The translations under genes and the position numbers were made by a program. From positions 1-42,996 of the forward strand of contig CAKKRP010000051.1 of assembly GCA_919902765.1 (NCBI GenBank): a stretch of 42,996 nt of DNA, written 5' to 3'. This DNA is from Gammaproteobacteria bacterium. Lineage in GTDB: Bacteria; Pseudomonadota; Gammaproteobacteria; S012-40. Below, one piece after another: positions 14,749 through 31,214 of the stretch. The first letter of the stretch is position 1. Every line of letters starts with the position of its first letter. Under the pieces are notes generated by a model. It saw nothing but the letters and a program-made list of their open reading frames with translations. It made no database searches and had not been told where the DNA came from.

Positions 14749-14773
14749 GCAGCACGTGTTTCTGTCGAAGACC

Positions 14774-14881: not shown

Positions 14882-15619
14882 ATGCCAGAAATCAATCATT
14901 GCGATCTTGCGGGATTATTGGCGGCAGAATCTCTCAAGGACATCGAAGAAAAAGCGTCTCATTTAGTAAATGCACTAGGCTATGATGTTTTCGTAGCGGG
15001 TGTGCAGCGTGCTGGACGAATTCATGTTGTGAGTACTTACTCGCAGACCTGGCGGGCAATCTATGACGAACAAAATTTAATGGACAAAGATCCCACCGTC
15101 CTACACGCACGCCGTTCTACCCTGCCTTTGGTTTGGCACCCCGAACTTTTTCTACAAAAAGACGCGGCGTCGTTGTTAGAGCAGTCGCGCTGCTATGGAA
15201 TTTCCAGTGGACTCTCCATACCCGTACATGGCTCTAACGGTAGCGCTGCAATGACCAGCTTTGCCTCGGGCAGGGAATTTGGTGATGAACAGAAGCGTCA
15301 TGTGCAAGAAAATTTACCTGCCTCTATGTTACTTTCGACGTATCTATTTGAGGCTATCCAGCGCGTCGGTTCAACAATCACAGGTGAAACCGGTGCCGAG
15401 GCGTCGGCAGGTGAAACCGAAATATATTTAACTCCAAAAGAAACTGAATGTCTAAAATGGTCTGCAGCGGGTAAAAGTTCTTGGGAAATCGGTACAATCA
15501 TGTCATGTACAGAACGCACAATTAATTTTCATTTTGGGAATATTATAAAAAAATTAGGCGTTTCCAACCGGCGCATGGCCGTCGCGAAGGCCATCGCTAC
15601 AAAGTTAGTCAGCATCTAA
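14882..15619 (+). CDS. luxR: LuxR-family acyl-homoserine-lactone-responsive transcription factor
   Basis: The 245-residue regulator has an N-terminal autoinducer-binding domain and a C-terminal LuxR helix-turn-helix. The invariant ligand-pocket residues known from TraR occur at matching positions: Trp57, Tyr61, Asp70, Pro71 and Trp85, with a glycine near 110. In the DNA-binding domain the conserved Glu187, Leu191 and Gly197 lie in LTPKETECLKWSAAGKSS. All nine signature positions are thus met, so it should bind an AHL. It is convergent with a luxI gene and is the likely reader of the lux boxes at 16460 and 28786. A stop codon lies in frame 6 nt before ATG 14882. The purine run GAAGG directly abuts the ATG, so translation initiation may be weak. 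Confidence 0.93.
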   Translation: MPEINHCDLAGLLAAESLKDIEEKASHLVNALGYDVFVAGVQRAGRIHVVSTYSQTWRAIYDEQNLMDKDPTVLHARRSTLPLVWHPELFLQKDAASLLEQSRCYGISSGLSIPVHGSNGSAAMTSFASGREFGDEQKRHVQENLPASMLLSTYLFEAIQRVGSTITGETGAEASAGETEIYLTPKETECLKWSAAGKSSWEIGTIMSCTERTINFHFGNIIKKLGVSNRRMAVAKAIATKLVSI

Positions 15620-15638
15620 GTTCCTTCAGATCAATTAA

Positions 15639-15670
15639 CCTAGAAACGGCATCCAATCGCTGTTTCTAGG
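15639..15670. terminator. Hairpin between convergent luxR and luxI
   Basis: CCTAGAAAC / GTTTCTAGG is a perfect 9-bp stem with a 14-nt loop, located 20 bp after the luxR stop and 46 bp before the luxI stop. It is flanked by AATTAA on the left and ATTAAAGATTTT on the right. It could terminate both genes, although neither side has a long T run. Confidence 0.5.
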
Positions 15671-15715
15671 ATTAAAGATTTTGCCTAGTGCGTTTGACAT
15701 AGTGCGGGCTGAATA

Positions 15716-16375
15716 TCACCCATGCATGATAGCGGCGGTGTTTAAGCGTGAATTTCGACCAAATTCTGCTTGGTTAAGTTCGATCCGGGTCTGCGCGGCC
15801 AAAAATAGGGCCGCATGTGTCACGTCGTCTATTTCTATGCTCAGCGCAACTGCACGCTCTACTCCAATTTGCCGCAGTTTACCTAAACGGGCGACGCTAA
15901 CGCCCAAACGGCGCAACATTCTTTCCAGTGCCACATTAGTTACCGTAACGTAGCGACGAATATTGTTCTGTACTGCGAACGTGTATGCCGCCTGCATCAT
16001 CAAAAAAGGAACCATGCTGGTATATCCGGCAACATGTTCTCTGCTGTTGGATTCGGTAGCAAAACGAGATAGCTCCCAGATGTCATTTGATCCGGGCGCG
16101 CAGCTTCCATCCAATAATTCAGGAAAGGTATCACGCAACATGTTGGGTCCCGTGGTTGGCAACATACGCCAGGAGCCAATGACGTTTTTCCCGCCGTCAC
16201 GTACCAATAAATAGACTGGGTTTAATAAATCATAGGAGTCGAGTTCCTGCTCATTTTCGCCGCATACTTCCCAGTTAAGTCGCTGGCGAAATACACGGTA
16301 ACGCAGGTGATGCATGTTTTGTAAATCTTCTTGAGCCAGCCCGTCATATTCGCGATGTGCAATGATTACGTTCAT
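15716..16375 (-). CDS. luxI: LuxI-family acyl-homoserine-lactone synthase
   Basis: It makes an N-acyl-L-homoserine lactone from S-adenosylmethionine and an acyl-ACP. The 219-residue protein carries every classical invariant residue at its canonical number: Arg25, Phe29, Trp35, Asp46, Asp49, Arg70, Phe84, Glu101 and Arg104. A threonine in the VTVTN strand (about 144) sits where LasI/EsaI-type enzymes favour 3-oxo acyl chains, but the actual chain cannot be predicted. The start ATG 16375 has a perfect GGAGG site 8 nt upstream. A lux box and a -10-like hexamer upstream suggest positive autoinduction. The gene lies directly behind the biosynthetic operon on the same strand, so read-through from that operon could also feed it. 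It converges with luxR. Confidence 0.96.
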   Translation of the reverse strand: MNVIIAHREYDGLAQEDLQNMHHLRYRVFRQRLNWEVCGENEQELDSYDLLNPVYLLVRDGGKNVIGSWRMLPTTGPNMLRDTFPELLDGSCAPGSNDIWELSRFATESNSREHVAGYTSMVPFLMMQAAYTFAVQNNIRRYVTVTNVALERMLRRLGVSVARLGKLRQIGVERAVALSIEIDDVTHAALFLAAQTRIELNQAEFGRNSRLNTAAIMHG

Positions 16376-16430
16376 GCTAACAGCCTCCGTTGATTCGTTT
16401 AAGTTACTTTTTTAACTTGGGACGAGAGAT

Positions 16431-16475
16431 ATGTTACTCATAATGGCCGTCGGGCCATACTGTCAGATCTGTCAG
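16431..16475 (-). promoter_or_regulatory. lux box and promoter of luxI
   Basis: CTGTCAGATCTGTCAG at 16460-16475 fits the CT-N12-AG lux-box pattern and differs by one base from the box at 28786. On the minus strand a -10-like TAACAT lies at 16436-16431. The spacing between box edge and -10 equals that at the operon promoter, which puts the box centre about 42-43 bp before the expected transcription start, the classical activator position. The box overlaps the stop codon of the preceding phosphopantetheinyl transferase gene. Confidence 0.8.
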
Positions 16476-17341
16476 GACAGGATATCTATCCCGCTGACGG
16501 TAAGTGGTATATTCACGCCGGAAGGGCGTATCACTTCAATTCTCGCTTGCGGTCGGGCGGAGCACATCACCGTCGCGAAATTTGGCCAGCTTTTTAGATA
16601 ATGCAACGAATGCCCACCTAATGATTTTCGTTTGCCTGATACCAATTCTATGCTGAGCGCAAATTTAGAGAAAAGCGGTAACAATTGTTCCCAACCGTCT
16701 CCAATACCGATGCCTAACATTTTGGCGAAGGCCTCCCTTTCACTCCACGCCAACGCAAATACCTGACTGCGCATTCGTGCGTCCATGTTATGATATTGAA
16801 CGATCGCGCCGGGGCCTAATATGCGTTCCGCCAATTCATCGTATGATCGCGAGCGTATTTTTTCAATATCTATGCCTATCGTAGTATCCTGTGCAATCGC
16901 GATGACTGCGTATCCATGAGAGTGGGACAGGCTGAATTCCACTCCACCACTATTAACAAGTATCGGTTTTCCCCGCGATCCATATTCAAATACGAGTTTG
17001 GCGGGGTCTTGGTGGGCGTATTCTGCGAGTACGTATCGCAGCGCGCTGCGCGTTTGTCCCCATTTGGCGCCTGCAATTAGATTGCTAATGCGAGCGAGCC
17101 GAATCTTTTCATCGTGATCCAGTAAAGTATCTTTTAATCCTTCAAATGAAGACAACACATTTGGAGATAACAGCCAAACATGGGCATTGTCGTTTAAAAG
17201 GCAAGGGACTCTGCCCACAATCGCGCAATCGCTACGTTCGGAAAAATTCATACATGTTATGCCTTTTTGTAATGCCGAACTATTCATGATTTCATATCCA
17301 ATAGTTGCATCCGCTTGCGGTCTAGAAAAACCATCGCGCAT
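16472..17341 (-). CDS. Sfp/AcpT-type 4'-phosphopantetheinyl transferase
   Basis: It transfers 4'-phosphopantetheine from coenzyme A to a carrier-protein serine, converting apo-ACP to holo-ACP. Motifs are RGKP near 123-126, FSLSHS (136-141), the Mg-binding GIDIE (156-160, with Asp158 and Glu160) and WSEREAFAKMLGIGIG (199-214, catalytic Glu203). The obvious partner is the operon's own ACP at 27399. ATG 17341 overlaps the end of the outer-membrane protein gene by 20 bp and has AGGGG 9 nt upstream. Internal ATGs at residues 19 and 31 would remove an atypical N-terminal extension. The product is 289 residues from the first ATG. Its stop codon lies inside the luxI lux box. It is the last gene of the biosynthetic operon. 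Confidence 0.9.
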   Translation of the reverse strand: MRDGFSRPQADATIGYEIMNSSALQKGITCMNFSERSDCAIVGRVPCLLNDNAHVWLLSPNVLSSFEGLKDTLLDHDEKIRLARISNLIAGAKWGQTRSALRYVLAEYAHQDPAKLVFEYGSRGKPILVNSGGVEFSLSHSHGYAVIAIAQDTTIGIDIEKIRSRSYDELAERILGPGAIVQYHNMDARMRSQVFALAWSEREAFAKMLGIGIGDGWEQLLPLFSKFALSIELVSGKRKSLGGHSLHYLKSWPNFATVMCSARPQARIEVIRPSGVNIPLTVSGIDILS

Positions 17342-18683
17342 TGAACTGAACCCCTACGCGTTCCGGTGATGCCCCGTATTGGCTGTATTTGTCGCCAAAA
17401 CGCAACCATGTCTCCACCCAATATTCCCACGTCGTAGCCACATGTTGTGTCCAACGCGCATTCAAGATGCCACTGCCGTCGCGCGTAGCCATAAGGGAAG
17501 GTTGAATATCAATATCATGCACTACTGACATACTCATTCTTAAAAAAATGTGCGTGCCGTGCGCGATCCGTAGTGATTCCATGTCGTATCCCAGATTAAT
17601 TCCGCGCGCCGATTGGTTGGTTAAATTGTCGTGAAACTTCACGACGTTTTTCCATATCTGAAATTGATCTGAATTCATCCCCCTGTTATCACGCCACAAT
17701 TCCATGACCCACGTCGTGTTTGCCTCCGTCGTAAACGTCGCACCTGCCAGCCCTCGGGCGCGAATTTGGCCGTCGTGCGCCAACCAAGGTTGGACGGGGC
17801 TCTGGTATATATAAACATCTGCTGCGCCGAGTTGATCGCCTCTATTCAGATAGACGTTTTTATGTACGGGATAGGGATTGCCACGGTTCGCAAATCCTGC
17901 GACATAAAATGACCATGCCGCCGTTGGCACATAACTTAGCGCGACGCCCCCACCGGGATTCCCGGCCTCTATATATTGAAGAACGGCTGTGGCGGTTAAT
18001 TGATCAATACTTTTACGTCCGGTGGCGACCCATTGACGAAATCCGCGATTGAATCCCGGGTTAGTTCCACCGTATTCATATGAGTAGGAAGAAATAGTGT
18101 CATCCGAATAAATAAGGCGATACGCGGACAGCGCGTTCGCATAGGTTATATTAACCATCGGGAACCCTACGAATTTACCGGCACGATCTTCAAAATCACT
18201 TCCACGTATGCCATCTTCTAAGATGTCAATCGCGTGAAAAGATTGCCCGTCATCTAACGTCAGGTTGAGTCGCCCGATCGTAAAGGATGTTTGATCCGAA
18301 AAAATATATTTCCAAGACACTTGCGGGATATCCGCCGCAAATTTATTGGCCTCGTCTGCGGTGTTTTGCCGCTTCGTGGGAATATATTTTCTTTCAGCCG
18401 TTAGACGCGTGCGTAGCCATAGAGAGCTGTAACGCATATCGATAGCCCCTGCCAATTCCGCTGTCTGTACGGGCACGCCCGCGCCATTGTCAGCGTTGAG
18501 TGCATGGTTGATCTCGCGTTGCGCGAATTGACCATATACGAACCCTGAAAATAATGGAGCCACGGGCGATTCTACGTCTTGCATTTCTTCGGCACCAGCG
18601 GTGTGGGCAATCGTCAGCGAGACACAGATAATGACTGCTGCGCTCATCTTGTTCAGGTCGTAAACGCGGCAATTCACCGCCAT
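17322..18683 (-). CDS. Outer-membrane beta-barrel protein of the lipid-export module
   Basis: The 453-residue product has a Sec signal peptide (hydrophobic AAVIICVSLTIAHTAGAEE). It then has alternating amphipathic strands rich in Tyr, Trp and Phe and ends in ARWFF, a C-terminal aromatic typical of BAM substrates. Segments such as TIGRLNLTLDDGQSFH and GGGVALSYVPTAAWSFYVAGFANRG look like barrel strands and turns. No plug, TonB box or POTRA domain is evident. It lies in an overlapping chain with LolA-like and ABC exporter genes (10-bp overlap upstream, 20-bp downstream). This suggests it is the outer-membrane terminus of the same transport route or the receptor for the exported molecule. Family not recognised. 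Confidence 0.72.
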   Translation of the reverse strand: MAVNCRVYDLNKMSAAVIICVSLTIAHTAGAEEMQDVESPVAPLFSGFVYGQFAQREINHALNADNGAGVPVQTAELAGAIDMRYSSLWLRTRLTAERKYIPTKRQNTADEANKFAADIPQVSWKYIFSDQTSFTIGRLNLTLDDGQSFHAIDILEDGIRGSDFEDRAGKFVGFPMVNITYANALSAYRLIYSDDTISSYSYEYGGTNPGFNRGFRQWVATGRKSIDQLTATAVLQYIEAGNPGGGVALSYVPTAAWSFYVAGFANRGNPYPVHKNVYLNRGDQLGAADVYIYQSPVQPWLAHDGQIRARGLAGATFTTEANTTWVMELWRDNRGMNSDQFQIWKNVVKFHDNLTNQSARGINLGYDMESLRIAHGTHIFLRMSMSVVHDIDIQPSLMATRDGSGILNARWTQHVATTWEYWVETWLRFGDKYSQYGASPERVGVQFNARWFF

Positions 18684-19432
18684 TCTCCCAACGACTCTAG
18701 CGCGTATAATTGTTTGCTGAGTGCCTTTGGAACTGTCTGTTCAAGTACCATCTCAGTGCGATTGTCGGGCCGAATGAGGTCTTTGAACACCATACGTTTG
18801 ATACCCAATCGATCGTTAATTGTCACCGGTTTATCGAATGTCACCGATTTGAAACTTTTGCCGCTTTTCAAGAAAAAGGTTGCTTCCAACGGCCGTGCAT
18901 CGACGCGTGATACCGCCAGTTGGATGTGGGGATAAACCGCCATATCGGATTTCGCAGTGAGTTCCAATAACCACGCGGCTTCACCCGCCAACTCGATTTC
19001 GGGATGCGCGCTGTACTCCGCAGTGTAGTCATCCTGCCAGCGCATGCGGCCGATATCGCCGACCGATGCCTCGCCCAATAGACGCTGCATCGGTGTAATC
19101 CGCACGGTACGCGTACTGCGCGGAAGTTTTATCCATAATCCTTCGTTAGTCATCAACATGTGTTGGCCAGCATCCGCGCCTTCCATAACGCGAATCAACG
19201 ATTTATCCGAGCCTTGGACGGCAACCTTAAAATGACTTTCACGTTCAGATTTATCACCGTGAAACTGCACCAGGCGGACATCCATAATGGCGGCGGAATA
19301 TAACTGACGAAAATCATCTGCGCGTTTAACCAATGTCTGTGCGTCAGGTGGTGCAGCATGCACCGTACTTATTGCGAACGCCGTGATCACTAAAGCACTG
19401 CAGATTCGCTTTGGATTAGGCAATGTGCGCAT
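18674..19432 (-). CDS. LolA-like periplasmic lipid/lipoprotein-carrier protein
   Basis: The 252-residue protein has a signal peptide (ALVITAFAISTVHAAPP). The mature domain looks like the 'outer membrane lipoprotein-sorting protein' group (COG2834, LolA/TP0789-like). It forms an open beta barrel that can hold an acyl chain. Supporting segments are VKRADDFRQLYSAAIMDVRLVQF, then GLWIKLPRSTRTVRITPMQRLLGEASVGDI and VDARPLEATFFLKSGKSFKSVTF. It should ferry a hydrophobic cargo from the adjacent LolCDE/MacB-like ABC transporter across the periplasm. LolA-like proteins also occur in aryl polyene clusters. GGAG lies 8 nt before ATG 19432. The gene overlaps the downstream barrel gene by 10 bp. Confidence 0.82.
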   Translation of the reverse strand: MRTLPNPKRICSALVITAFAISTVHAAPPDAQTLVKRADDFRQLYSAAIMDVRLVQFHGDKSERESHFKVAVQGSDKSLIRVMEGADAGQHMLMTNEGLWIKLPRSTRTVRITPMQRLLGEASVGDIGRMRWQDDYTAEYSAHPEIELAGEAAWLLELTAKSDMAVYPHIQLAVSRVDARPLEATFFLKSGKSFKSVTFDKPVTINDRLGIKRMVFKDLIRPDNRTEMVLEQTVPKALSKQLYALESLGEWR

Positions 19433-19449
19433 ATCAAAATCTCCAAAAG

Positions 19450-20676
19450 TTAGTTGTGATTCAACTGTTCAAGGATAGTCATACGTCTTGAAGATATCAG
19501 TGAAAGCGCTGCGGCAAGTACACCAACAATGACCATTCCCAAAAGCGTCAATCCATAGGCCGTAGGTTCTATAAATATCAATAGCGGGTAGGAGGTGGTG
19601 CGCCCGGGCGGTGGCGGCATTTCAATTCCGGAAAAATTGATGGCCAATGCCAAAACGATTGCGAGTAATAGTCCTGAAATGCCCCCAATCATGCCCACAA
19701 TGCCGCCTTCCAGGAGAAAGTTTTGGCGAATACGCAGCGCTGGAATACCGAAGGCACGCAACGTTCCTTGTTCCCTTATGCGTTCAAACAGGCTCATCAG
19801 CATCGCGTTGGATACCGACAACAACACTACGATGAGAATAATTGCGCCAAGTACGCCGAAAATATTGCTGTATAAGGTGACCACTTGTTGATAAAACGGT
19901 GCCAGGTCTATCCAACGTTTTATCTCCAAGTCAGTCAGCCGCGCGTGCAGGCCTTGCGCAACGGCGTCTGTACGCGCGGTGTCATTGAGCACCACAACGA
20001 CGCGCGATATGCGCTGCGTATCCAATAAACTTTGTGAAGTGGCCAGCGGCATCATGATCGCACGCCGGTCTAATTCGGGAATTCCGGTGCGATATATGCC
20101 AGATACGATAAGATCAATGGCATTTAGCACACCTTTTTCCGTGGTTGCTAGCACGGTCACGCGGTCGCCGGCTTTGACACCCAGTGCCCGGGCCAAATCA
20201 ACCGCGATTATGACTTTGTTTTGATCGGCTTCACTGCTGACTGGCAGGCTATCGCCATCTACTATGGCGGCAAACACACCGGAGAGGCGAGTTTCCTGTT
20301 CCGGTTCTACACCGCTTCCAACAACCGCCAGTGTACGATCACCTGCGGCGATGAGTCCCTCGAATAAAACGCGTTGCATACTAAAGCGCACGCCAGGAAG
20401 GGCGGCGGCGTTCGTCATCGCGGCGCTCGCTTGTTGCTGGCTCAATCCGTTGTCCATGGGTGTTTTTTCGAAGCCGGCAAACTGCCCTTTTGCACCGATT
20501 TGAATGTGACCCAGTTGCCCCGCAATCGTTGCTTCACGTAGACCGTGAAAAGAGGCACTCACAAAACCTGTGGCAGATAAGATCGCCGCCGTGCCCGCTG
20601 AGAAAATTAGAACCGAAAGCAGGGTGCGACGCTTATTACGCAACACATTGCGATAGGCAAACGCTAACCATTTCAT
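19450..20676 (-). CDS. FtsX/LolC/MacB-type ABC transporter permease
   Basis: The 408-residue inner-membrane protein has the MacB/LolC topology. One N-terminal helix (RTLLSVLIFSAGTAAILSATG) is followed by a large periplasmic core of about 220 residues. Three helices then carry the FtsX domain (VVLLSVSNAMLMSLFERIREQGTLRAFGI is the cytoplasmic coupling segment). This family uses ATP to push lipoproteins, lipids or peptides out of the inner-membrane outer leaflet. It overlaps its ATPase gene by 4 bp, so the two are translationally coupled. Only one permease gene is present, implying a homodimer as in MacB rather than a LolC/LolE heterodimer. Confidence 0.9.
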   Translation of the reverse strand: MKWLAFAYRNVLRNKRRTLLSVLIFSAGTAAILSATGFVSASFHGLREATIAGQLGHIQIGAKGQFAGFEKTPMDNGLSQQQASAAMTNAAALPGVRFSMQRVLFEGLIAAGDRTLAVVGSGVEPEQETRLSGVFAAIVDGDSLPVSSEADQNKVIIAVDLARALGVKAGDRVTVLATTEKGVLNAIDLIVSGIYRTGIPELDRRAIMMPLATSQSLLDTQRISRVVVVLNDTARTDAVAQGLHARLTDLEIKRWIDLAPFYQQVVTLYSNIFGVLGAIILIVVLLSVSNAMLMSLFERIREQGTLRAFGIPALRIRQNFLLEGGIVGMIGGISGLLLAIVLALAINFSGIEMPPPPGRTTSYPLLIFIEPTAYGLTLLGMVIVGVLAAALSLISSRRMTILEQLNHN

Positions 20677-21374
20677 GAATACAAAACTCCGTCGCTCAAT
20701 GTATATACCATGCGCGCACGTTTGATGACGCGCGGATCGTGTGTAGCTACCACAAAAGTGGTGCCGAGATCGTCCGTAAGCTTTACCATGAGATCGATCA
20801 AATCCTCGGTAGTGGTACCGTCAAGATTTGCGGTAGGTTCGTCCGCCAACACCAATAGCGGCTTGCGCACCAATGCGCGCGCGACTGCGACGCGTTGTTG
20901 TTGCCCGCCGGACAATTGGTTAGGGCGGTTATTTACTCGTTCCGCCAAGCCCACGGCATGGAGGACTTCTAATGCACGCTGCCTACGTTCACGCGCGGAG
21001 ATAGGTGAGGGATACAATGGCAGCTCGACGTTTTCTACAGCGGATAACACCGGTACTAGATTAAAATTCTGAAAAATAAATCCAAGATGTTCACGCCGTA
21101 ATTTTTCGAGCTCACGCTCATCGTTCAAGGCCACCGCGTTGCCAGCGAGCGTTATTTCACCCGCTGCGGGTGGATCCAACAGACCGAGTACATTTAACAG
21201 TGAACTTTTACCGCTCCCTGACGGGCCGCAGATAGCGATAAAATCTCCGGCTGCAACGTCGATATTTACGTTATTGAGCGCCTGTACCCGTGTGTCGCCG
21301 CGTTGATGGGTTTTATATAAACCGCGACCAGATATCGCTGTTGAAGTCGCTCCGTTCATTGATAGCGCGTCCAT
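20673..21374 (-). CDS. LolD/MacB-type ABC transporter ATP-binding protein
   Basis: The 233-residue ATPase shows Walker A GPSGSGKSS (50-58), the Q-loop region FIFQNFNLVPVLSAVENV, signature LSGGQQQRVAVARAL, Walker B LLVLADEPTANLD and the switch His in VVATHDPR. These place it in the LolD/MacB/FtsE subfamily that partners with FtsX-type permeases, and it overlaps that permease gene. The first ATG (21374) overlaps the preceding gene by 19 bp, and Met6 is an alternative start. All catalytic motifs are intact. Confidence 0.93.
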   Translation of the reverse strand: MDALSMNGATSTAISGRGLYKTHQRGDTRVQALNNVNIDVAAGDFIAICGPSGSGKSSLLNVLGLLDPPAAGEITLAGNAVALNDERELEKLRREHLGFIFQNFNLVPVLSAVENVELPLYPSPISARERRQRALEVLHAVGLAERVNNRPNQLSGGQQQRVAVARALVRKPLLVLADEPTANLDGTTTEDLIDLMVKLTDDLGTTFVVATHDPRVIKRARMVYTLSDGVLYS

Positions 21375-21976
21375 ATTGTGTTGGCTGTATCGGCATTCGC
21401 AAGCCGGGCCTTTTGTAGATACGTTTGGGAATTTGACGTGTCGTTCTCACGCGCCGTCAGCACTGCCAGCCAGGCGTACGCGCTCGCTTGGTGTGCCGGA
21501 CTGATGCTGGAAAATAAAGGATGATTGATCACTGCTTTAAAATCCGCTCGGGCGGTGGATCCGCGACCAAACAACTTTGGGATGCGGGCACTGGTCGTGC
21601 CGCGTACCATGCGCACCTCGATTTCCATGCGTGTACTGGCACTCTGCCTCTCCGCTACAACTGCCGCGACCCCATCATCCATCAAGTCAATCCCTTCCTT
21701 CAGGGAGCTAAGCTTACGCCACGGCAAAATGGATTCTCGCGCAATCATTGCCGCCAACGACCCACGGTACGTCATGGCCCGGCCATCCCGTGGGTGCGCC
21801 TCTGAATATTCCGACGCGAGATCAAAAGCGTGCTCTATGGTGTCATAGTCCCCTAAACGTTGGGCACTGTCGTAGGCAGCGGTAATGTTTTCCCAGGACG
21901 GATTACCGCTGCTGTTTGCCATCATACCGGCACCGAAAAATATTATTGCAGTGAAACCAGCGTATAAAAATTTCAT
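21356..21976 (-). CDS. Hypothetical exported helical-repeat (TPR-like) protein
   Basis: The 206-residue product has an N-terminal hydrophobic segment (MKFLYAGFTAIIFFGAGMMANS), either a signal peptide or an anchor. The remainder is mostly helical, with TPR-like spacing (WENITAAYDSAQRLGDYDTIEHAFDLASEYSEAHPRD...AYAWLAVLTARENDTSNSQTYLQKARLA). It overlaps the thioesterase gene by 4 bp and the ABC ATPase gene by 19 bp, firmly linking it to the export module. TPR-like periplasmic proteins often act as scaffolds, so a role in assembling the transporter is an inference. No enzymatic residue pattern was seen. Confidence 0.65.
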   Translation of the reverse strand: MKFLYAGFTAIIFFGAGMMANSSGNPSWENITAAYDSAQRLGDYDTIEHAFDLASEYSEAHPRDGRAMTYRGSLAAMIARESILPWRKLSSLKEGIDLMDDGVAAVVAERQSASTRMEIEVRMVRGTTSARIPKLFGRGSTARADFKAVINHPLFSSISPAHQASAYAWLAVLTARENDTSNSQTYLQKARLANADTANTIWTRYQ

Positions 21977-22443
21977 GTGCGTTCTCCTACTGTAGTGTGA
22001 ATTTTGCTGAAAGATTCAGTGCGGCCTCGCGCGCCAATCTGCTGGGATTTGCGCGATAGACTTCTAAGCAACTCATCCGGTAAGCGTGAAATCTGCTTGC
22101 GCCGGGCGGATACCGCGACCACATCCGCGTTTACCTTCGCAACGATATCTTGGCCGCGCACGATATCGGTACGCCAGATGCTGCGCGCGGCGCTCACGGA
22201 TTCCAATACCGTGTGTGCGATGAGTTCATCCTCCAATCGTGCCGGAGTTCGAAAAGTCGCTGTCATTTTATGCACCACCAAGAGCGTATCATGGTCATGG
22301 GCGATCGTATCGAAGCTGTACCCCTCGCCTATCATCCATTGCAAACGCGAGCGTTCGGCCAGCTCGATATAACGGCCGTGATACATGACACCACCGGCAT
22401 CGGTATCGGCGTAAGCCACTGTCTGGCGGACGATGCCATACAT
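21973..22443 (-). CDS. Hotdog-fold acyl-CoA/acyl-ACP thioesterase (4HBT/YbgC type)
   Basis: The 156-residue protein has the 4HBT thioesterase signature YADTDAGGVMYHGRYIELAER, with the catalytic aspartate most likely Asp15 and the following HGRY pattern. The family hydrolyses acyl thioesters. In this operon it probably releases the finished chain from the ACP or edits stalled intermediates. ApeK has an equivalent place in aryl polyene clusters. The start codon shares one base with the stop of the double-ketosynthase gene, and its end overlaps the next gene by 4 bp. The basic C-terminal tail (about 130-156) is extra to the core fold. Confidence 0.85.
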   Translation of the reverse strand: MYGIVRQTVAYADTDAGGVMYHGRYIELAERSRLQWMIGEGYSFDTIAHDHDTLLVVHKMTATFRTPARLEDELIAHTVLESVSAARSIWRTDIVRGQDIVAKVNADVVAVSARRKQISRLPDELLRSLSRKSQQIGARGRTESFSKIHTTVGERT

Positions 22444-24833
22444 TAATGAACCCCCTCGGCATTGGACACTATCACTGCGCTAAATTCGCCGCCGGCGCTG
22501 GTATGTAGCACTAAAATATGGCGCGGGTTCACGATGTTGCTGGGTTTTGTCTCCTGCGCCTGGGGAGGCTCGGAATGGCGGGCAAGGATCTCCGCAGCTA
22601 ACAATATATGCATCGGAAATAACGCAGAGGGTGCCATACCGGTCGCAGACGCGGCACTCACACGCGGTGGAACAGCGCGGCCAAACAACGCTTCAAGCGC
22701 GCTTGCCTCTGCCAACAATAGATTGCGTGGTCCAGTGCCCGGCAAAACTACGGCATCGATTTCTTTCGCAGTAATCTTTGCCGCTGCGAGTGCTTGGTTT
22801 GCGGCCCGTTGTAGCCCAGTACCGGAAGGATCTACACTGTCCAACAGTCCGTCTTGCGCAAGACCGATACCGCTGATAAGCGCGGCAACGCGTGCGTTGC
22901 GCGCCCTTGCAATGGAAAGACGTTCTAACAGCACTGCACCCGCGCCTTCGCCGGGATTCACGCCGGGCGTTGCCCTAAACGGCATCACCGCATCTGTGGC
23001 CAGCAATCCGATATCTTGTAGTGCACGGATCACCAGCGGGGACAGTTCGTCACCGCCTACACTGAGCGCGCGATCTTGACGACCATCCCTGACCAGCGCG
23101 TGTGCGTACGAAAATGCGGTGACGGCGCCGCAAAAAGTCGTATTAAATCCTTTGATACCAAACTCAATTGAAATTTGGCCGCCCATCGCATTCATCGTGG
23201 TCATCGGGAAATGAATTGCACTGCCAAATTGAAGTCCTTCATCGAAAATGCTGGTCATGAATTTTTCTACACTGCGTTGGGCACCGTGGGTGATACCGCA
23301 GATTAACGCGCAACGATAGGGGTCTGCAGCGATCAATGCCCGCCCACCGGCCGCGACTATCGCTTGTTCCGCCGCTAATGCGCCGGATTTAATCATCGTG
23401 GAACTGCGTGGATTGCACGGTGCCTTGACGCCTTTTAGGACTTTTTCCGCACGCCCTGCATGTACACCCCACTGGTCGTCACGTGGAAGTGGGCCGGGTG
23501 TGTTCCAGAGTCTGTCAAACAATGCTTGTGTCGTTAAACCAAAATCACCTACCGCCCCTCCACCGACTATGGCCACCGCGTCATCAAGCAAACGGTGCGC
23601 CGCCGGGCCGGCCTTGCGCGTAACGACCAGGGAAGAATTGTTACCACCGAAACCATAGTTGTTGCAGAGAAACGCGTTTACGTTATGTTTCTGCGCCTCA
23701 TTCGGGACGTAGTTGAGGGGCGGGCAACCTGCGCGGGGCGCATTGAAATGGCGGGTCGGTGGCACCAGACCTTGCTCCGCGAATAACAGCGTGACAATCA
23801 ATTCGACGACACCGGAGGCACCCAATGTGTGGCCCAAAAAGGATTTCGGAGACGACAGGGGGGTGTGATTGCCGACGACGCGGGCGGTAGCCAGGGATTC
23901 CGGGATATCATTAGCGTCGGTTCCGGTACCATGCGCCGACACGTAATCGATGTCGGAGGCAACCATACCCGCATCGGCCAATGCAAAACGCATGGCGGCT
24001 TCTACACCGCGCCCCTCGGTATCCGTTGCCGTTTCATGGTAGGCGTCGCCTGACAGACCATAGCCCCTGATCCATGCCAGGGGTTGTTTGCTGCGCTGCT
24101 GTGCGGATTCCGTACGTTCCAATATCACCACACCCGCACCTTCACCCAGCGTGATACCAGGGGGCGTGGAAAACGGCGCAGAAGGTGAAGTACTCATCGC
24201 GCGCAATGCATTGAATCCGGCAAGTATGGACGGTGATACCGTGTCCGTACCGATTACGATGACACAATCCACCTCATTGCGGATCAACCAATCAGATGCC
24301 AACCCAACTGCGGTGTTACTGCTTGCGCACGCCGAGGAAATGGTCGATTTTGGGCCTAATGCACCCACTCGTTTCGAAACCACGGAGGCCGTATGATCGG
24401 TCGAAGCGGCCGCGAGCCATGCGGCAGGTGTCTTGCCGTTATTGGCCGCCCTGAGGTGCAGGAAACTCTTTTCAATGTGTTGGATGCCGGAATGTGAGGT
24501 ACCGACAATCACGCCTACGCGTTCAGGCGCGTACCCTGCCGTCGCAAAGGCCGCTTGCGCAAGCGCTTCTTCGGTCGCGGCAATAGCGAACCACGCGCCG
24601 CGATCAAAATGGCTGCGTTCTTTTTCGGTTAGGCCAAAATCCTTGGCTTCCGGGGCAAACTCCGATACCCAATCGCTGGCCAACGCGGTGCCGTCAAAGC
24701 TCTTAACGTGGTCTATCGCATCGCCACCCGCGATAAGTGTTCGCGCCACTGCCTCGCACCCGCGCGCCACCGGCAGGCAAATTCCCATGCCAGTGACACA
24801 CACCCCTTCTGCACTTCTATATTGAGGTAACAT
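22443..24833 (-). CDS. Fused tandem beta-ketoacyl-ACP synthase (active KS plus degenerate, CLF-like KS)
   Basis: The 796-residue protein holds two FabF-type thiolase-fold domains. KS1 (about 10-405) has the full triad: Cys169 in SSACASS, His301 in AHGTGTD, and His335 in FLGHTLGASG, plus Lys330. KS2 (about 418-795) keeps a cysteine (Cys568, TFCGAVTAF) and the GGDE turn, but HGTGT has become PGTGP (698-702) and the second His motif has become ASATGMAPS. KS2 should therefore be unable to decarboxylate malonyl-ACP. An active KS with an inactive mate matches the KS-chain-length-factor heterodimers of type II polyketide and aryl polyene synthases, here joined in one chain. KS2 probably fixes chain length or stabilises the dimer. 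AGGAG lies 9 nt before ATG 24833. The gene abuts fabG-like and thioesterase genes. Confidence 0.9.
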   Translation of the reverse strand: MLPQYRSAEGVCVTGMGICLPVARGCEAVARTLIAGGDAIDHVKSFDGTALASDWVSEFAPEAKDFGLTEKERSHFDRGAWFAIAATEEALAQAAFATAGYAPERVGVIVGTSHSGIQHIEKSFLHLRAANNGKTPAAWLAAASTDHTASVVSKRVGALGPKSTISSACASSNTAVGLASDWLIRNEVDCVIVIGTDTVSPSILAGFNALRAMSTSPSAPFSTPPGITLGEGAGVVILERTESAQQRSKQPLAWIRGYGLSGDAYHETATDTEGRGVEAAMRFALADAGMVASDIDYVSAHGTGTDANDIPESLATARVVGNHTPLSSPKSFLGHTLGASGVVELIVTLLFAEQGLVPPTRHFNAPRAGCPPLNYVPNEAQKHNVNAFLCNNYGFGGNNSSLVVTRKAGPAAHRLLDDAVAIVGGGAVGDFGLTTQALFDRLWNTPGPLPRDDQWGVHAGRAEKVLKGVKAPCNPRSSTMIKSGALAAEQAIVAAGGRALIAADPYRCALICGITHGAQRSVEKFMTSIFDEGLQFGSAIHFPMTTMNAMGGQISIEFGIKGFNTTFCGAVTAFSYAHALVRDGRQDRALSVGGDELSPLVIRALQDIGLLATDAVMPFRATPGVNPGEGAGAVLLERLSIARARNARVAALISGIGLAQDGLLDSVDPSGTGLQRAANQALAAAKITAKEIDAVVLPGTGPRNLLLAEASALEALFGRAVPPRVSAASATGMAPSALFPMHILLAAEILARHSEPPQAQETKPSNIVNPRHILVLHTSAGGEFSAVIVSNAEGVH

Positions 24834-24850
24834 CTCTATTTTCTCCTGAT

Positions 24851-25663
24851 TTACCGTTTGAATCCGCCGTCTATGCGCAATGTGCTGCCCTGTAAATAGC
24901 CGGGAGACAATAGAAACACCACTGCTGACGCCACTTCTGCGACTTCGCCCATCCGTTTTAATGCAGTCGCTGCCAAAATATGGTCATACATTTCAGGCTC
25001 TAGGACGTTCACCATTTCGGTACGTATGAATCCTGGCGCGATTGCATTGACCCGTAGACCTTGTTCTCCGTAGCGCCTGCCTAGCCACTGCGTAAAACCC
25101 ACCAATGCACCCTTGCTTGTCGCGTAAGACACCTGCCCCTCTTTCCCGGAAATTCCCGCTAATGATGCTACGACCACGACCGAGGGATCGGGTTGGCGCA
25201 ACAACGCCGGAAGCGCGGCCAGCGTTAAGCGTGCCGTTCCGCCGAAATTGGCGTTTAACACCCGTTGCCAGCGCGCTGCGTCCATCGTTAAAAACGCGCC
25301 GTCATCGGTCAGGCCGGCGTTATTGACGAGCGCGTCTAAACGGCCGAAATGCGTCTCCACTTGAGCGGGTAGGTTGCGCACACTTTCTTCACTCGCCAAG
25401 TCCACGGCAAATGCTTGAACGCGTTGTTCAGAATCCATAATTCCTTCGCGCAAGGTTTGTAAAAATAAATCGGCGACGCTGGCCTCGCTACGATAAGTAA
25501 AGCCTACATTCCATCCGTCACTCACCAATTTTGTTACGATCGCACGCCCGATTCCACGTGTGCCGCCGGTAACGAGTACCGTTTTACGCAGTACCGGCAC
25601 CGCAGATGCGCCAACGCCACAATCGGCAGGTTGCAGCGTAATATTCGCTTGTTTGCTTGTCAT
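24851..25663 (-). CDS. 3-oxoacyl-ACP reductase (FabG-like SDR)
   Basis: It reduces beta-ketoacyl-ACP with NADPH. The classical SDR motifs are complete: cofactor loop VTGGTRGIGRA, VNNAG, catalytic Ser in SLAGISGKEG, the Tyr-x3-Lys pair in SYATSKGALVG, and PGFIRTEM. ATG 25663 (MTSKQANITL) is chosen because AAAGGA lies about 8 nt upstream and it follows the previous stop by 17 bp. A longer frame from 25705 would overlap that gene without a clear ribosome-binding site. From this start the protein is 270 residues, with a 26-residue N-terminal extension beyond the usual FabG start. It acts in the elongation cycle with the KS, ACP and dehydratase of the operon. Confidence 0.92.
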   Translation of the reverse strand: MTSKQANITLQPADCGVGASAVPVLRKTVLVTGGTRGIGRAIVTKLVSDGWNVGFTYRSEASVADLFLQTLREGIMDSEQRVQAFAVDLASEESVRNLPAQVETHFGRLDALVNNAGLTDDGAFLTMDAARWQRVLNANFGGTARLTLAALPALLRQPDPSVVVVASLAGISGKEGQVSYATSKGALVGFTQWLGRRYGEQGLRVNAIAPGFIRTEMVNVLEPEMYDHILAATALKRMGEVAEVASAVVFLLSPGYLQGSTLRIDGGFKR

Positions 25664-25679
25664 GAGTAGTCCTTTTGTC

Positions 25680-26357
25680 CTAGACGTTGTTTTCGGGATA
25701 GCCAATACCTACCGGCAATACCATACCCGCCAGAGGAATACCCTTGAGCTCGATAAGCGCGCGTAGAAATTTCGCAACATCAATGCTTTTTTGCGGCCTA
25801 AATTTGATGGCAAAGGCCTTCAAGTTTGTACGCGCATCTTTCCACAACGCTGCATCCAATTGCTCCGCAAGCGGCTGGACGTGCAAAGCATTCAACTTCA
25901 CGCCAAAACAAAATACTTCTTTGGCTAAGCTCTTAATGGCACCCACAAGCGCCCGCGAACGCATAGGTTGGGCGGCGACAGGGAGGTAATATTGCATGCT
26001 ATCTTCTTGTAGAAGCACCCATACCTGCCCGTCATCACGACGTGACAACATCTGAACACTGGCCTTTATCTCGCCCAAAGTACGTGCAAGATCATGTTGA
26101 ATCTTGCCAATATCCTCAGGTGTCTCTGCCACCTCAGCGCCGTCCTGCAGGCCGAACACAATGCGCTCGAAAGGCCCGTAGGCAGAATCCCATTTTAATA
26201 ATTCGTTTGGAATGTCGTTTCCTACGATATCAATTCCCGGCTCAGACTTACGAGCGTGGGTGGTAACCGAATGACCCGCTTCCGCAAGTTCCTTTGAAAG
26301 CGCTAAACCTAGCGAATGATCAGCATCTACAATAAGAACCCGTTGTTTTTTGTCCAT
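25680..26357 (-). CDS. Degenerate SDR-family protein, probable non-catalytic partner of the ketoreductase
   Basis: The 225-residue protein looks like a Rossmann-fold short-chain dehydrogenase. An N-terminal beta-strand/helix (QRVLIVDADHSLGLALSKELAEAGHSV) stands where the glycine-rich cofactor loop would be, and a later helix reads RSRALVGAIKSLAKEV. The TGxxxGxG loop is altered to DADHSLG, and the catalytic Tyr of YxxxK is absent from the aligned helix. NADPH reduction therefore seems unlikely. Being next to an intact FabG-like gene, it may form a heteromer with it. A regulatory or scaffolding role is possible. GAGGT lies about 7 nt before ATG 26357. Assignment as SDR rests on fold-like pattern only. 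Confidence 0.6.
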   Translation of the reverse strand: MDKKQRVLIVDADHSLGLALSKELAEAGHSVTTHARKSEPGIDIVGNDIPNELLKWDSAYGPFERIVFGLQDGAEVAETPEDIGKIQHDLARTLGEIKASVQMLSRRDDGQVWVLLQEDSMQYYLPVAAQPMRSRALVGAIKSLAKEVFCFGVKLNALHVQPLAEQLDAALWKDARTNLKAFAIKFRPQKSIDVAKFLRALIELKGIPLAGMVLPVGIGYPENNV

Positions 26358-26366
26358 AACTATACC

Positions 26367-27384
26367 TCAATGTAAGAGTGCGACGCCGTAATTCCACGAC
26401 GCCGTTTCTATGCCCAACACGCCGACATAACTCTCGCCGGGATGGATATTTCCACGCTCTACGGCCCTTGCCATAGCGCGAAAAATCGCCGGCGCAGGAC
26501 AATTTCCGATTTCGTGTCCAACATAGAAGCGTTTACTATCCATGCTGTCATTTCCGGCGACGCGAATCATGGAGCGATTTACCTGCGGTACGATCAAGAC
26601 ATCGATTTTATCCGCGTTCCCGTCTACCGGCCCGAGCATGTCTTTCATGGCGCGTGCCGCCACGTCCGGCAAAACGCTGCGTATGCTGCGATGGTTGTGT
26701 ATCGCGGAACCGGACGCATCCAACGAAAATCCGACGTCGCGCAAATGAAAACGCGAGGCGATATCCGCGTGTAGTACGCGCAAACCCTTTGTTTTAGGAT
26801 TCGCCTGTACGACTATCGCTCCGCCGCCATCCGCGAATGCCAGACCGTTCATCAAATTTTCACTTGATAATTTTGCATTGGCCTTTAATAAAGGTGCGAA
26901 ATACGCCGGAGAAATGCAATCCGCCGCAGTAACTAACACCGTTTTGGCGCGCCCGCTTTCAATAAGAGTACAAGCGGTGGTTAGCGCCTGCATCGCTACC
27001 GTGCAACCCCCCCCGCAAGTCCAATGTCCGAATCTCGCCTAGACCGAGTTTTCGTTGTATTTGATAAGTGAGTGGTGGCAGCCGGTCATCCGGAGTGGAA
27101 GAGGATGTAATCAGAAAATCCACTTCGCCTACCTCTACGCCTGCCTGTTTCAAAGCACGTTGCGCCGCACGCACGGACATCTCGGTGGTGCCTAAACCAG
27201 GTTCGCGGCGCTCGCCGGTGGCCGGATCAATCACGTAGTGACGTGACTCAACGCCGAAATAATTCATAAGCGTAGTGACTGGCGTCTGCAACGCGACCTC
27301 TAATTCCGCGTTAGTCACCGGCGGCCCCGGGGAATAGTCCGCGACACCGGTGATCGCGATTTCCTTGCTGTCTCTGAATGTCAC
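26367..27384 (-). CDS. KAS III-like 3-oxoacyl-ACP synthase, reading frame shifted at a G8 tract
   Basis: The gene starts at GTG 27384 (AGGAG 8 nt upstream) and reads MTFRDSKEIAITGV to TLDLRGG. A run of eight G on the coding strand (C8 at 27007-27014) throws it out of frame. With seven G it reads on as RGGCTVAMQALTTA and continues to the stop at 26367, about 338 residues, the normal KAS III length. The catalytic cysteine is the first residue after the tract. Downstream, the usual HQAN motif is PQVN, so the catalytic His is lost, while the GN of the Asn motif (IGNCPAPA) is kept. It may prime the pathway, act as an acyltransferase, or be a second chain modifier. The frameshift is a sequencing error, a real mutation or a slippage switch. 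The sequence cannot tell which. Confidence 0.8.
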
Positions 27385-27398
27385 GAATTTCGCTCCTA

Positions 27399-27704
27399 TT
27401 ATGCGACCTTGGTCAGCGCGGTTTCCGCCAAATTATTTAAAATAAAGGCGGCCAACGTACGCACGCTATGGCATGCGGATTCGATCAGATCTTTATCGAT
27501 TTCCTTGATTTGAAAGCCATACGTCTTCTCCGAACCGACGAGCAAATCAAGCGCTTCGACGGAATCCAGGCCCAACCCGGCGCTATCCAATAGCAGGTGG
27601 TCGTCACCGATATCTTCATAGGTCAACCCCGTGTCTTCCAGTTCCAGGCGCACTAATAGCAAATTACGCTTGATATGCTCGATTACTTCGCTCTCACTCT
27701 TCAT
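27399..27704 (-). CDS. Acyl carrier protein
   Basis: A small acidic carrier protein with the phosphopantetheine attachment motif GLDSVEALDLL. The modified serine is residue 48 from the chosen start. ATG 27704 is preferred to the ATG at 27710 because AGGAG sits 8 nt before it but only 2 nt before the other. At about 101 residues it is longer than typical FabA-pathway ACPs (about 78), with an extended helix I and a C-terminal tail. It carries the growing chain among the operon's KS, KR, DH and TE, and is presumably activated by the transferase at 16472. It is the only ACP in the window. Confidence 0.92.
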   Translation of the reverse strand: MKSESEVIEHIKRNLLLVRLELEDTGLTYEDIGDDHLLLDSAGLGLDSVEALDLLVGSEKTYGFQIKEIDKDLIESACHSVRTLAAFILNNLAETALTKVA

Positions 27705-27740
27705 GATCATCTCTCCTAGTTAAGTTGACGAAAGTCGCCG

Positions 27741-28280
27741 TTATACATCTATGCGCAGAACATCGCTGTTGTTTATGAACGATGCCACGGCGGCCTGCAC
27801 AATCGGTTGTTGCTCTACGTTAGCAATTGCTTGATATAAATTAATTTGAGCGCGTGCGCATCGCACGCCCTCATGATAGGCGGCGCACTTAAAGCTATGT
27901 ATGGCCCCTTTGTAATCTCCCACCGTCAATTCACCTGTGCCGCGCACGATTTTGCAATCAAAAACGATTGTTTGGTGAGGCCTTACCGTCTTATTAAACT
28001 TCGCGGTGTCCACACCGACCAAATAGCCAGGGATAATTTTTCCTGCCTGTTTATTCAAAAACAATCTGGCGGCTTGCGCCATACACTCAAGCAATACCAC
28101 GCCCGGCACTATTGGATCTCCCGGAAAATGGCCTGCAAAATACGGCTCATCCGGTCGAAAGGTATGTGTAATCCACGCGCGCCCTTGCGCCTCATCTACT
28201 ACTGCATCGTCAGCAAATAAGAATGGCGCGCGATGCGGCAAATAACTAAGTACATCAATTTTCTGTTGAACGCCCGACAT
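27741..28280 (-). CDS. FabZ-like 3-hydroxyacyl-ACP dehydratase
   Basis: The 179-residue hotdog protein has the FabZ/FabA signatures LPHRAPFLFADD and YFAGHFPGDPIVPGVVLLECMAQA. The catalytic His51 and Glu65 are both present. It should dehydrate 3-hydroxyacyl-ACP to the trans-2-enoyl form. No enoyl reductase gene was found in the operon, so double bonds may be kept, giving a polyene. Alternatively, the housekeeping reductase acts. The protein is about 30 residues longer than FabZ at the C-terminus. It follows a shorter hotdog gene lacking the histidine, and the two could form a heterodimer as reported for ApeI/ApeP. Confidence 0.92.
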   Translation of the reverse strand: MSGVQQKIDVLSYLPHRAPFLFADDAVVDEAQGRAWITHTFRPDEPYFAGHFPGDPIVPGVVLLECMAQAARLFLNKQAGKIIPGYLVGVDTAKFNKTVRPHQTIVFDCKIVRGTGELTVGDYKGAIHSFKCAAYHEGVRCARAQINLYQAIANVEQQPIVQAAVASFINNSDVLRIDV

Positions 28281-28326
28281 TTAACACCCTCCTCGACATA
28301 ATTTGAATTTCAGAATTTGAAATATT

Positions 28327-28695
28327 TTATTGGCCGTTGAATATGGTTACCGTAAAACAAAAAATGGGTGCCGCTGCTGTTTTTAATTTTACATACAATA
28401 TTAAACTGGACGGACTAGGTACCACATTCGGCAGATGCGCGTTTTCCACCCCAACCAAGTAGCCGCTGTTGTCTCCCTCGGTTTCTTCAGATGTAAGCGC
28501 GCGAAGCAGTAACCCGCTGGATTGTGCCATCGCCTCTACCAACAGGTAACCAGGAAGCCCCTGAGGATACGCATAACGATTTTGACCTTCCAAAATGGTC
28601 AAGCCGAAAGCTCCGGACTGCGTTTCACGGTTTACGGAAAATACGTCATCTATGTAGCGGAACGGCGGTTTTTGTCGTAACGAATCAATCTGCAT
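28327..28695 (-). CDS. Hotdog-fold dehydratase-like protein lacking the catalytic histidine
   Basis: The 122-residue product, first gene of the operon, aligns by eye with FabZ. KPPFRYIDDVF corresponds to the HRxPFLxxD start, and QGLPGYLLVEAMAQSS to the PxVPGVLxxEAMAQ helix, retaining Glu54. The GHFPG histidine position is Arg40 (NRYAYP), so the usual dyad is incomplete. It also stops soon after the third strand and is short for a full hotdog. It is probably a structural or substrate-shaping partner for the intact dehydratase encoded next (46-bp gap). The start at 28695 lies about 55 bp from the predicted transcription start. Confidence 0.72.
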   Translation of the reverse strand: MQIDSLRQKPPFRYIDDVFSVNRETQSGAFGLTILEGQNRYAYPQGLPGYLLVEAMAQSSGLLLRALTSEETEGDNSGYLVGVENAHLPNVVPSPSSLILYVKLKTAAAPIFCFTVTIFNGQ

Positions 28696-28756
28696 AAATA
28701 CATCCCGATTTAAATTGGAGAATTGAAATTCTCTATTGCGTCAACTCATGGTCAGG

Positions 28757-28801
28757 ATACTATGCATCGGGAGGGAAAAATGTAACTGTCAGATCTGACA
28801 G
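28757..28801 (-). promoter_or_regulatory. lux box and promoter of the biosynthetic operon
   Basis: CTGTCAGATCTGACAG (28786-28801) is a perfect 16-bp palindrome of the CT-N12-AG lux-box class. Reading leftward, a -35-like TTACAT abuts it at 28785-28780. A 17-bp spacer follows, then TAGTAT as -10 at 28762-28757. The centre of the box is thus about -42 to -43 relative to a start near 28750, the classical place for LuxR activation. The first gene starts at 28695. Confidence 0.85.
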
Positions 28802-30424: not shown

Positions 30425-31207
30425 CTATTTAAATATCATCCGCATCATCTTGCCATGTGTCTTTTCGGCGAGCGTTTGATATTCCCATAAGGTATCCGGG
30501 TTGTCGCGTCCTAAAGGTAAGGTGAAAACGGGCGCTGGAATGCTGAAATAATGGATTTCGTCCGTTGCGGGCTCATCGCCGATCAACAAATAGGCACCCG
30601 GCGCCGGCGCGTTTTGTGCGGCGCGTTTAAAGGCGTCGCCTATGGTTTCGTTATAACCGGTAAACGGCGCGCCTTCCATCAGGTGGTCGAACATTTCACC
30701 CATGGTGCCGGAATAGGTCGCGGCATTGCCGTCGGAAAACCAGGTGATGGCGGTCAATTTTTTGCCGGAACGCGTGACGATTAAACGTAAAATGGGAATT
30801 AAAAAATTCGATATTCCGTGCATAGACCCGCTGGCATCGACGATCAAGTGTAAATCTTTGCCGGGAAGGTCGTGTAGGCCTTGCACGAACAAATCGAAGT
30901 CTTTGCGTCCCTTGCTGCCTTCCAGACCCGCGTACCCTAATACTTGATCGGCTTGAGTCTTGGGGTCGCTGGCGGCGAGATGTTCCAAGTCGCTTTTTAA
31001 ACGCGCCTCTTTCTTTTCTTCGTTTGCCAGTTGCGCGCGCAATTCTTGTATTTCGGCCTTCAATTTCGGCACTTGCTCGGTGGTTGCAAGTTTGTAGGTC
31101 ATCAGTGTAATAATGAAAATAAACAAAAACATCGTCAACATCTGCATGGCGATGTCGGCCAAGATTTGGTAGATGCCGTCGCGCGATGCCGTTTTTCTAC
31201 CCCGCAT
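30425..31207 (-). CDS. MotB/ExbD-like membrane protein fused to a von Willebrand factor A domain
   Basis: The 260-residue protein has a short basic N-terminus, then one helix with the pattern ILADIAMQMLTMFLFIFIITL. Asp18 sits at the position of the proton-binding aspartate of MotB/ExbD/TolR. A charged coiled coil (about 45-80) follows, then a vWA domain whose MIDAS motif DASGSM (124-129) is intact. Peptidoglycan-binding OmpA or ExbD C-terminal domains are absent. Lying 7 bp after a MotA/ExbB-like gene, it likely forms the stator-type proton channel's plug subunit. The vWA domain would replace the usual peptidoglycan or TonB contact and bind a partner protein in the periplasm through a metal ion. 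The function of such fusions is not known to me. Confidence 0.78.
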   Translation of the reverse strand: MRGRKTASRDGIYQILADIAMQMLTMFLFIFIITLMTYKLATTEQVPKLKAEIQELRAQLANEEKKEARLKSDLEHLAASDPKTQADQVLGYAGLEGSKGRKDFDLFVQGLHDLPGKDLHLIVDASGSMHGISNFLIPILRLIVTRSGKKLTAITWFSDGNAATYSGTMGEMFDHLMEGAPFTGYNETIGDAFKRAAQNAPAPGAYLLIGDEPATDEIHYFSIPAPVFTLPLGRDNPDTLWEYQTLAEKTHGKMMRMIFK

Positions 31208-31214
31208 GAGTGTC

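Follow-up and report, generated by a model that had tools for sequence, protein, structure and literature searches.

A predicted acyl-homoserine lactone circuit adjoining a type II lipid/polyketide and Lol-like export operon in an environmental gammaproteobacterium

A 14-gene operon predicted to join a type II polyketide synthase (PKS)/fatty acid synthase (FAS)-like unit to a Lol-like export module lies beside a LuxI/LuxR pair in a Gammaproteobacteria bacterium of the lineage S012-40, known from environmental DNA alone. The window, that is, the whole stretch of DNA analysed here, comprises 42,996 nt of contig CAKKRP010000051.1 (assembly GCA_919902765.1). Two palindromic lux boxes, one upstream of the operon and the other upstream of luxI, stand at the position typical of activation by LuxR-type regulators and are conserved in a second species of the genus. 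The original prediction, made from the DNA alone, held that LuxR bound to an N-acyl-homoserine lactone (AHL) switches on both the operon and luxI, and this predicted activation is well supported by the conservation of the boxes, the -10-like hexamers and the spacing between them. As a whole, a dedicated, self-amplifying AHL circuit wired to this one biosynthesis and export operon is the explanation that we favour and regard as quite probable.

Lux boxes and the LuxI/LuxR pair

Box 1, the perfect palindrome CTGTCAGATCTGACAG (28786..28801, minus strand, no mismatches), is found upstream of the operon, and box 2, CTGACAGATCTGACAG (16460..16475, minus strand), upstream of luxI, where it overlaps the stop codon of a phosphopantetheinyl transferase (PPTase) gene; CTGTCAGATCTGTCAG at 16460-16475 has one mismatch relative to CTGTCAGATCTGACAG. 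The -10-like hexamers TAGTAT of the operon promoter (28757..28762) and TAACAT of the luxI promoter (16431..16436), both on the minus strand, start 23 bp after the respective box. Thus, the perfect 16-bp palindrome at 28786 and the one-mismatch copy at 16460 that had been reported are both in place, and their equal distance from a -10-like hexamer proved to be exactly 23 bp at each promoter. With this distance, the box is centred near -43, close to the -42.5 that is classical for activation by LuxR. Prediction of sigma-70-type promoters returned none at either promoter on the operon strand.

Within the window, the two boxes are the only matches to CTGTCAGATCTGACAG with at most three mismatches (0.06 expected), and a separate search for CT-N12-AG sites in which 14 or more of the 16 positions are palindromic identified three in the 43 kb, two of which are these boxes, compared with 0.34 such sites on average, and no perfect ones, in Markov-1 sequence. 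Across the genome (3.3 Mb in 157 contigs), no site other than the two boxes has fewer than three mismatches to the perfect palindrome, and sites with three mismatches occur at about the frequency found for the reversed pattern that served as control. With only two boxes below three mismatches in the genome, this looks like a system that serves a single operon and not a global one. The sequence CTGTC-N9-GACAG near 14762, upstream of luxR, was considered as a further box and rejected for its wrong spacing and its lack of conservation in the second species.

The luxR-type AHL receptor/activator gene (14882..15619, plus strand, 245 aa) encodes the Pfam domains Autoind_bind (1.2e-25) and GerE (2.1e-17); the nearest solved structures are those of LasR, and the AHL-pocket residues W, Y, D, P, W and G are all present in the alignment and translation. 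The luxI-type AHL synthase gene (15716..16375, minus strand, 219 aa) matches Autoind_synth (8.9e-34; PF00765, 117 bits against a cut-off of 24), with LasI as the nearest solved structure (3e-44) and the usual invariant residues readable in the translation and in the alignment to LasI. The adjacency of the two genes and their complete sets of AHL-binding and invariant residues, as originally described, agree with the Pfam cut-offs, which both proteins pass, and with the alignments to LasR and LasI. Domains and key residues alike assign the pair to the LuxI/LuxR AHL systems. The luxI gene is located 97 bp beyond the operon end, on the same strand and with its own box, and is convergent with luxR. 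The overlap of this box with the PPTase stop codon, together with the shared strand, makes it probable that luxI is transcribed as the terminal gene of the operon and in addition from a promoter of its own.

Of 13 genomes of the order that were searched, one other, G001, contains the gene for a fused ketosynthase (KS) and chain-length factor (CLF) that is central to the operon. This genome, a gammaproteobacterial metagenome-assembled genome that includes contig JAOUGF010000110.1, represents a second species of the same genus. Four of its contigs match 14.4 kb of the window with gene order kept and contig ends consistent, and luxR, luxI and the sequenced parts of the operon are retained in unchanged order. 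The genes measured are under purifying selection (dN/dS 0.03-0.14, dS about 0.75-1.5), including luxR (dN/dS 0.07; 86.5% amino acid identity) and luxI (dN/dS 0.066), and fourfold-degenerate sites are about 53% identical (range 44-66%). Against this background, each box is identical at 16/16 positions and each -10-like hexamer at 6/6, with the 23-bp spacing unchanged at both promoters, whereas the DNA upstream of box 1 is identical at 69/162 positions; if the neutral identity is taken as near 0.53, each box would reach 16/16 by chance with a probability of about 4e-5. Downstream of its -10, the luxI leader is identical at 49/55 positions, and since this leader is conserved throughout, box 2 is the less independent piece of evidence. 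The original prediction had proposed a search of related genomes for lux boxes at the same positions and had named their loss from close relatives that keep the operon as grounds for abandoning it; in G001, the sole such relative available, both boxes are present with their -10 hexamers and spacing.

The luxI leader also contains an inverted repeat, AAGTTA-N6-TAACTT (16401-16418), the arms of which are conserved in G001 while the loop differs. It could be an additional regulator site or a hairpin; in RNA folding, it performs no better than shuffled sequences. Genome G008, from a different genus within the family, has a distinct luxR-luxI pair (L036 616-2061) without the KS-CLF operon, and a strong CT-N12-AG palindrome was not found in the DNA upstream of that luxI.

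Biosynthetic and export genes

The operon occupies the minus strand from 28695 to 16472, and all of the genes described below are on this strand. Its tight packing, originally given as overlaps of 1-20 bp, is borne out by the coordinates of the open reading frames (ORFs), which overlap by 1, 4, 19, 4, 10 and 20 bp or are separated by gaps of 9-46 bp. The GC content of the operon (0.48-0.57) is similar to that of its flanks, so recent transfer is not claimed. A search against Rfam yielded no match.

The first gene (28327..28695) encodes a FabZ-like dehydratase partner (PF07977, 1.3e-05) in which the catalytic His is absent (YPQGLPGYLL) and the stop codon comes earlier than in G001. It is followed by a FabZ-type dehydratase with the motif HFPGDPIVPGV (27741..28280; PF07977, 1.7e-17; FabZ model, 4.2e-25, below cut-off), and by an acyl carrier protein (ACP; 27399..27710) recognised by the motif LDSVEAL and a below-cut-off match to the phosphopantetheine-binding model NF006617 (9.9e-09). 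Next come a FabH-type, ketosynthase III (KSIII)-like starter enzyme (26367..27384), a degenerate protein resembling short-chain dehydrogenases/reductases (SDRs) that lacks YxxxK (25680..26357; weak SDR matches; dN/dS 0.038 against G001) and a FabG-type 3-ketoacyl-ACP reductase with YATSK present (24851..25705; adh_short_C2, 9.9e-52), the real start of which may be located further in. The fused KS-CLF-like protein (22443..24833, 796 aa) is matched in two stretches by ketoacyl-synt (1.5e-40) and also by the FabF model, and its best solved-structure match is 9s5h. Its first half keeps Cys169, HGTGT and GHTLGAS, while the second half is devoid of both His motifs, a motif content corresponding to an active KS coupled to an inactive, KS-like chain-length factor as in type II PKSs; the stand-alone ACP, ketoreductase (KR) and dehydratases likewise conform to the type II arrangement. 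A 4HBT-fold acyl thioesterase (21973..22443; PF13279, 2e-11) and, as the last biosynthetic gene, a Sfp/HetI-like 4'-phosphopantetheinyl transferase (16472..17341; Pfam ACPS, 2.3e-10; HetI model, 6.4e-24, below cut-off) complete this set.

Between the two latter genes lies the export module. It consists of a putatively exported 206-aa protein to which neither Pfam nor NCBIfam assigns a family (21356..21976), a LolD-type ATP-binding cassette (ABC) ATPase (20673..21374; PF00005, 6.5e-33; LolD model, 1.7e-66), an FtsX/LolCE-type ABC permease (19450..20676; PF02687, 1.9e-13; LolCE model, 3.2e-30), a LolA-like periplasmic lipid carrier (18674..19432; PF17131, 1e-27) and a putative outer-membrane protein (OMP) of 453 aa with a signal-like N-terminus and a C-terminal Phe (17322..18683). 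The ATPase, permease and carrier together make up the core of a Lol-type exporter. The LolD and LolCE scores fall below the NCBIfam equivalog cut-offs, which points to a relative of the housekeeping Lol system rather than to that system itself. No family was returned for the putative OMP by Pfam or NCBIfam, no relative was found in a search of 369 genomes of the class and plasmids, and its AlphaFold model (predicted local distance difference test score of 29) was uninformative and was not used; the protein is 77% identical in G001, and in related clusters the equivalent slot holds an unnamed protein about 400-463 aa long. This domain content supports the originally proposed combination of a type II lipid/polyketide unit with an export unit, the former being PKS/FAS-like and the latter Lol-like.

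A frameshift in a G8 run (27007-27014), right at the region of the active-site Cys, divides the KSIII-like gene into pieces at 26959-27384 and 26367-26993. In G001 (locus L004), the corresponding ORF is intact (341 aa), the G run is absent, and the encoded protein has the Cys, with the canonical His replaced in a PQVN motif. FabH enzymes usually carry an HQAN-type motif in this place, which makes the exact reaction of the KSIII-like enzyme uncertain. A programmed frameshift is unlikely given that the G run is not conserved in G001. The frameshift, together with the earlier stop of the first gene, might be signs of decay, with this strain on the way to losing the operon. We consider such decay improbable: the two KSIII pieces are constrained like the other genes (dN/dS 0.05 and 0.04), the other measured genes are intact, and a single-base shift within a homopolymer is what assembly errors or reversible slippage typically produce. 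The equal constraint on both pieces suggests that the break is an assembly error, reversible slippage or a very recent event.

Outside the operon, the window includes a gene pair at 30425-32252, conserved in G001, for two further proteins: one, of 345 aa, is a MotA/ZorA-like membrane protein that weakly matches the NCBIfam ZorA model, and the other, of 260 aa, carries a von Willebrand-like DASGSM motif.

Related clusters and known systems

At E<=1e-75, no KS-CLF other than that of the window was detected in 369 genomes of the class, and at 1e-40, no KSIII was detected outside the genus in 114 relatives. When the KS-CLF search was widened to the phylum and its limit relaxed, most matches were single KS proteins of the FabF-like kind, but genome G638 yielded a fused KS-CLF of 852 aa. 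The cluster around it also encodes an ABC ATPase, a protein of about 215 aa, an FtsX permease, a LolA-like protein and an unnamed protein of 462 aa, in an order close to that of the operon. Clusters of this type are also annotated on a plasmid of Enterobacter bugandensis (L068 10710-25557) and on the chromosome of E. coli N3 (L076 10734-25525). The enzymes encoded in these two clusters include a holo-ACP synthase, an SDR, FabZ, an ACP, an aminomethyltransferase-like protein, a fused KS-CLF, a KS and a malonyltransferase, and they are accompanied by an ATP-binding protein, the Lol-like export module and an adjoining two-partner-secretion pair; the E. coli N3 cluster lies near ycdU, beside tRNA-Ser. 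The Enterobacterales clusters share with the operon a fused KS-CLF, about 28-35% identical in the parts that align, as well as KR, FabZ and ACP. They also share the ABC ATPase, the protein of about 210 aa, the FtsX permease, the LolA-like carrier and the unnamed protein in the OMP slot, arranged almost as in the operon, but differ in the aminomethyltransferase-like gene, the second KS, the malonyltransferase and the neighbouring two-partner-secretion pair; luxI and luxR are not listed within the annotated stretches that were read. Furthermore, an E. coli IncK2/Z plasmid carries SDR, ACP and KS-like genes with every part of the export module, where the protein in the corresponding slot is related to the 206-aa protein (3.5e-13). 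The plasmid clusters of Priestia megaterium and Pseudalkalibacillus are similar in their fused KS-CLF (about 30% identical over most of its length), ACP, KR and FabZ; these are Gram-positive bacteria, however, and neither LolA-type export nor LuxI/LuxR is listed there.

The export module is also found apart from KS genes. In Plesiomonas and Vibrio (L072 8288-14296, L074 8288-14073), genes for a LolD-like ATPase, an FtsX permease, a LolA-like protein and an unnamed protein are followed by histidine kinase and LytTR genes. This neighbourhood is compatible with the operon product being a second or modified signal, either the acyl chain used by LuxI or a signal in its own right, and LuxI-type enzymes use acyl-ACP as a substrate, with a dedicated ACP and a thioesterase encoded in the operon. 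Nevertheless, this possibility appears unlikely, considering that a Lol-type exporter fits a hydrophobic lipid bound for the envelope or for secretion, that the LuxI is of the ordinary LasI type and that the operon has no sensor kinase.

The AHL circuit favoured here resembles LasI/LasR-type systems in its family domains, key residues and CT-N12-AG palindromic boxes at the activation position before luxI and the target operon, and differs from them in having only two boxes with fewer than three mismatches in the genome, apparently as a one-operon system. In Methylobacter, the metabolite cluster for tundrenone is controlled by MbaI (PMC6977074), which similarly ties an AHL synthase to one biosynthetic cluster under its control in an environmental gammaproteobacterium. 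The operon described here has type II KS-CLF and KSIII genes and a Lol-like exporter. The Vfm quorum-sensing cluster of Dickeya (PMC9306890), considered for its 3-oxoacyl synthase VfmA and ABC transporter, was ruled out, its signal being described as partly a non-ribosomal peptide and a LolA-type protein not being mentioned. The original prediction knew of no pathway with this gene content. That needs narrowing: the KS-CLF combined with a similar ATPase-FtsX-LolA-OMP set recurs in Enterobacterales, in annotated stretches that list no LuxI/LuxR, and the pairing with LuxI/LuxR was seen in this genus only. In the literature searched, no paper combines these elements for such a cluster, which is weak evidence because most subscription journals lay outside the search.

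The proposed circuit and its implications

In the mechanism we propose, LuxI would make an AHL (a long-chain one, to guess from its similarity to LasI), and LuxR with this AHL would bind both boxes in place of a -35 element and recruit RNA polymerase. Box 1 would switch on the 14-gene operon and box 2 would switch on luxI, providing positive feedback, to which read-through from the operon should add further luxI expression. The KSIII-like enzyme would load a starter onto the dedicated ACP, activated by the PPTase of the operon; the fused KS-CLF would elongate the chain and set its length, the KR and the dehydratase pair would reduce and dehydrate it, and the thioesterase would free the product. 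Given that an enoyl reductase is absent from the operon, the product is likely to be an unsaturated or polyene acyl chain. The LolCDE-like ABC unit, the LolA-like carrier and the putative OMP would then take it to or through the outer membrane.

The direction of control cannot be read from the sequence, and the boxes would fit a repressor too, so LuxR might instead repress or otherwise modulate the operon and be released by AHL like the EsaR-type regulators. We regard this as improbable, since at both promoters a box at -35, 23 bp from the -10 and with no predicted sigma-70 promoter, constitutes an activator layout, and this LuxR is LasR-like; LasR is an AHL-dependent activator. It is very improbable that the operon represents a quorum-controlled pigment cluster of the aryl polyene type, and membership was rejected on gene content: KS and CLF, paired dehydratases, KR, thioesterase and a LolA-like carrier are common to the operon and the aryl polyene gene list (PMC8253772), whereas acyl-ACP synthetase, methyltransferase, acyltransferases, the resistance-nodulation-division (RND) transporter and a LolB-like protein were not recognised in the operon with Pfam and NCBIfam, and the operon instead has a fused KS-CLF, a KSIII-like starter enzyme for the acyl-ACP synthetase and an ABC (LolCDE-like) exporter with a putative OMP for the RND transporter.

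Several points weigh against the self-amplifying AHL circuit and the pathway assigned to it. Only one other genome has the operon, so the evolutionary footprint consists of two species; moreover, conservation of the whole luxI leader makes box 2 stand out less than box 1. On the side of the pathway, the frameshift in the KSIII-like gene may leave it incomplete in this strain unless it is a sequencing error, and the putative OMP is called solely from its signal-like N-terminus, C-terminal Phe and gene position.

A more speculative and less likely reading is that the fused KS-CLF and the LolCDE/LolA/OMP-like route recurring in Enterobacterales define a new class of outer-membrane or secreted unsaturated lipids or polyketides, placed here under a private AHL switch. 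On that reading, the operon would yield either a novel envelope lipid under density control or a second signal of lipid-like nature. The set of fused KS-CLF and Lol-like exporter is present, completely or partially, in E. coli, Enterobacter and Klebsiella, with no product found for it in the literature searched. Control by LuxR-AHL would make the operon product a density-controlled group trait. With two sites in the genome and a single biosynthesis-plus-export output, the predicted regulon would be very small and self-contained, so that signal, switch and product could be tested together.

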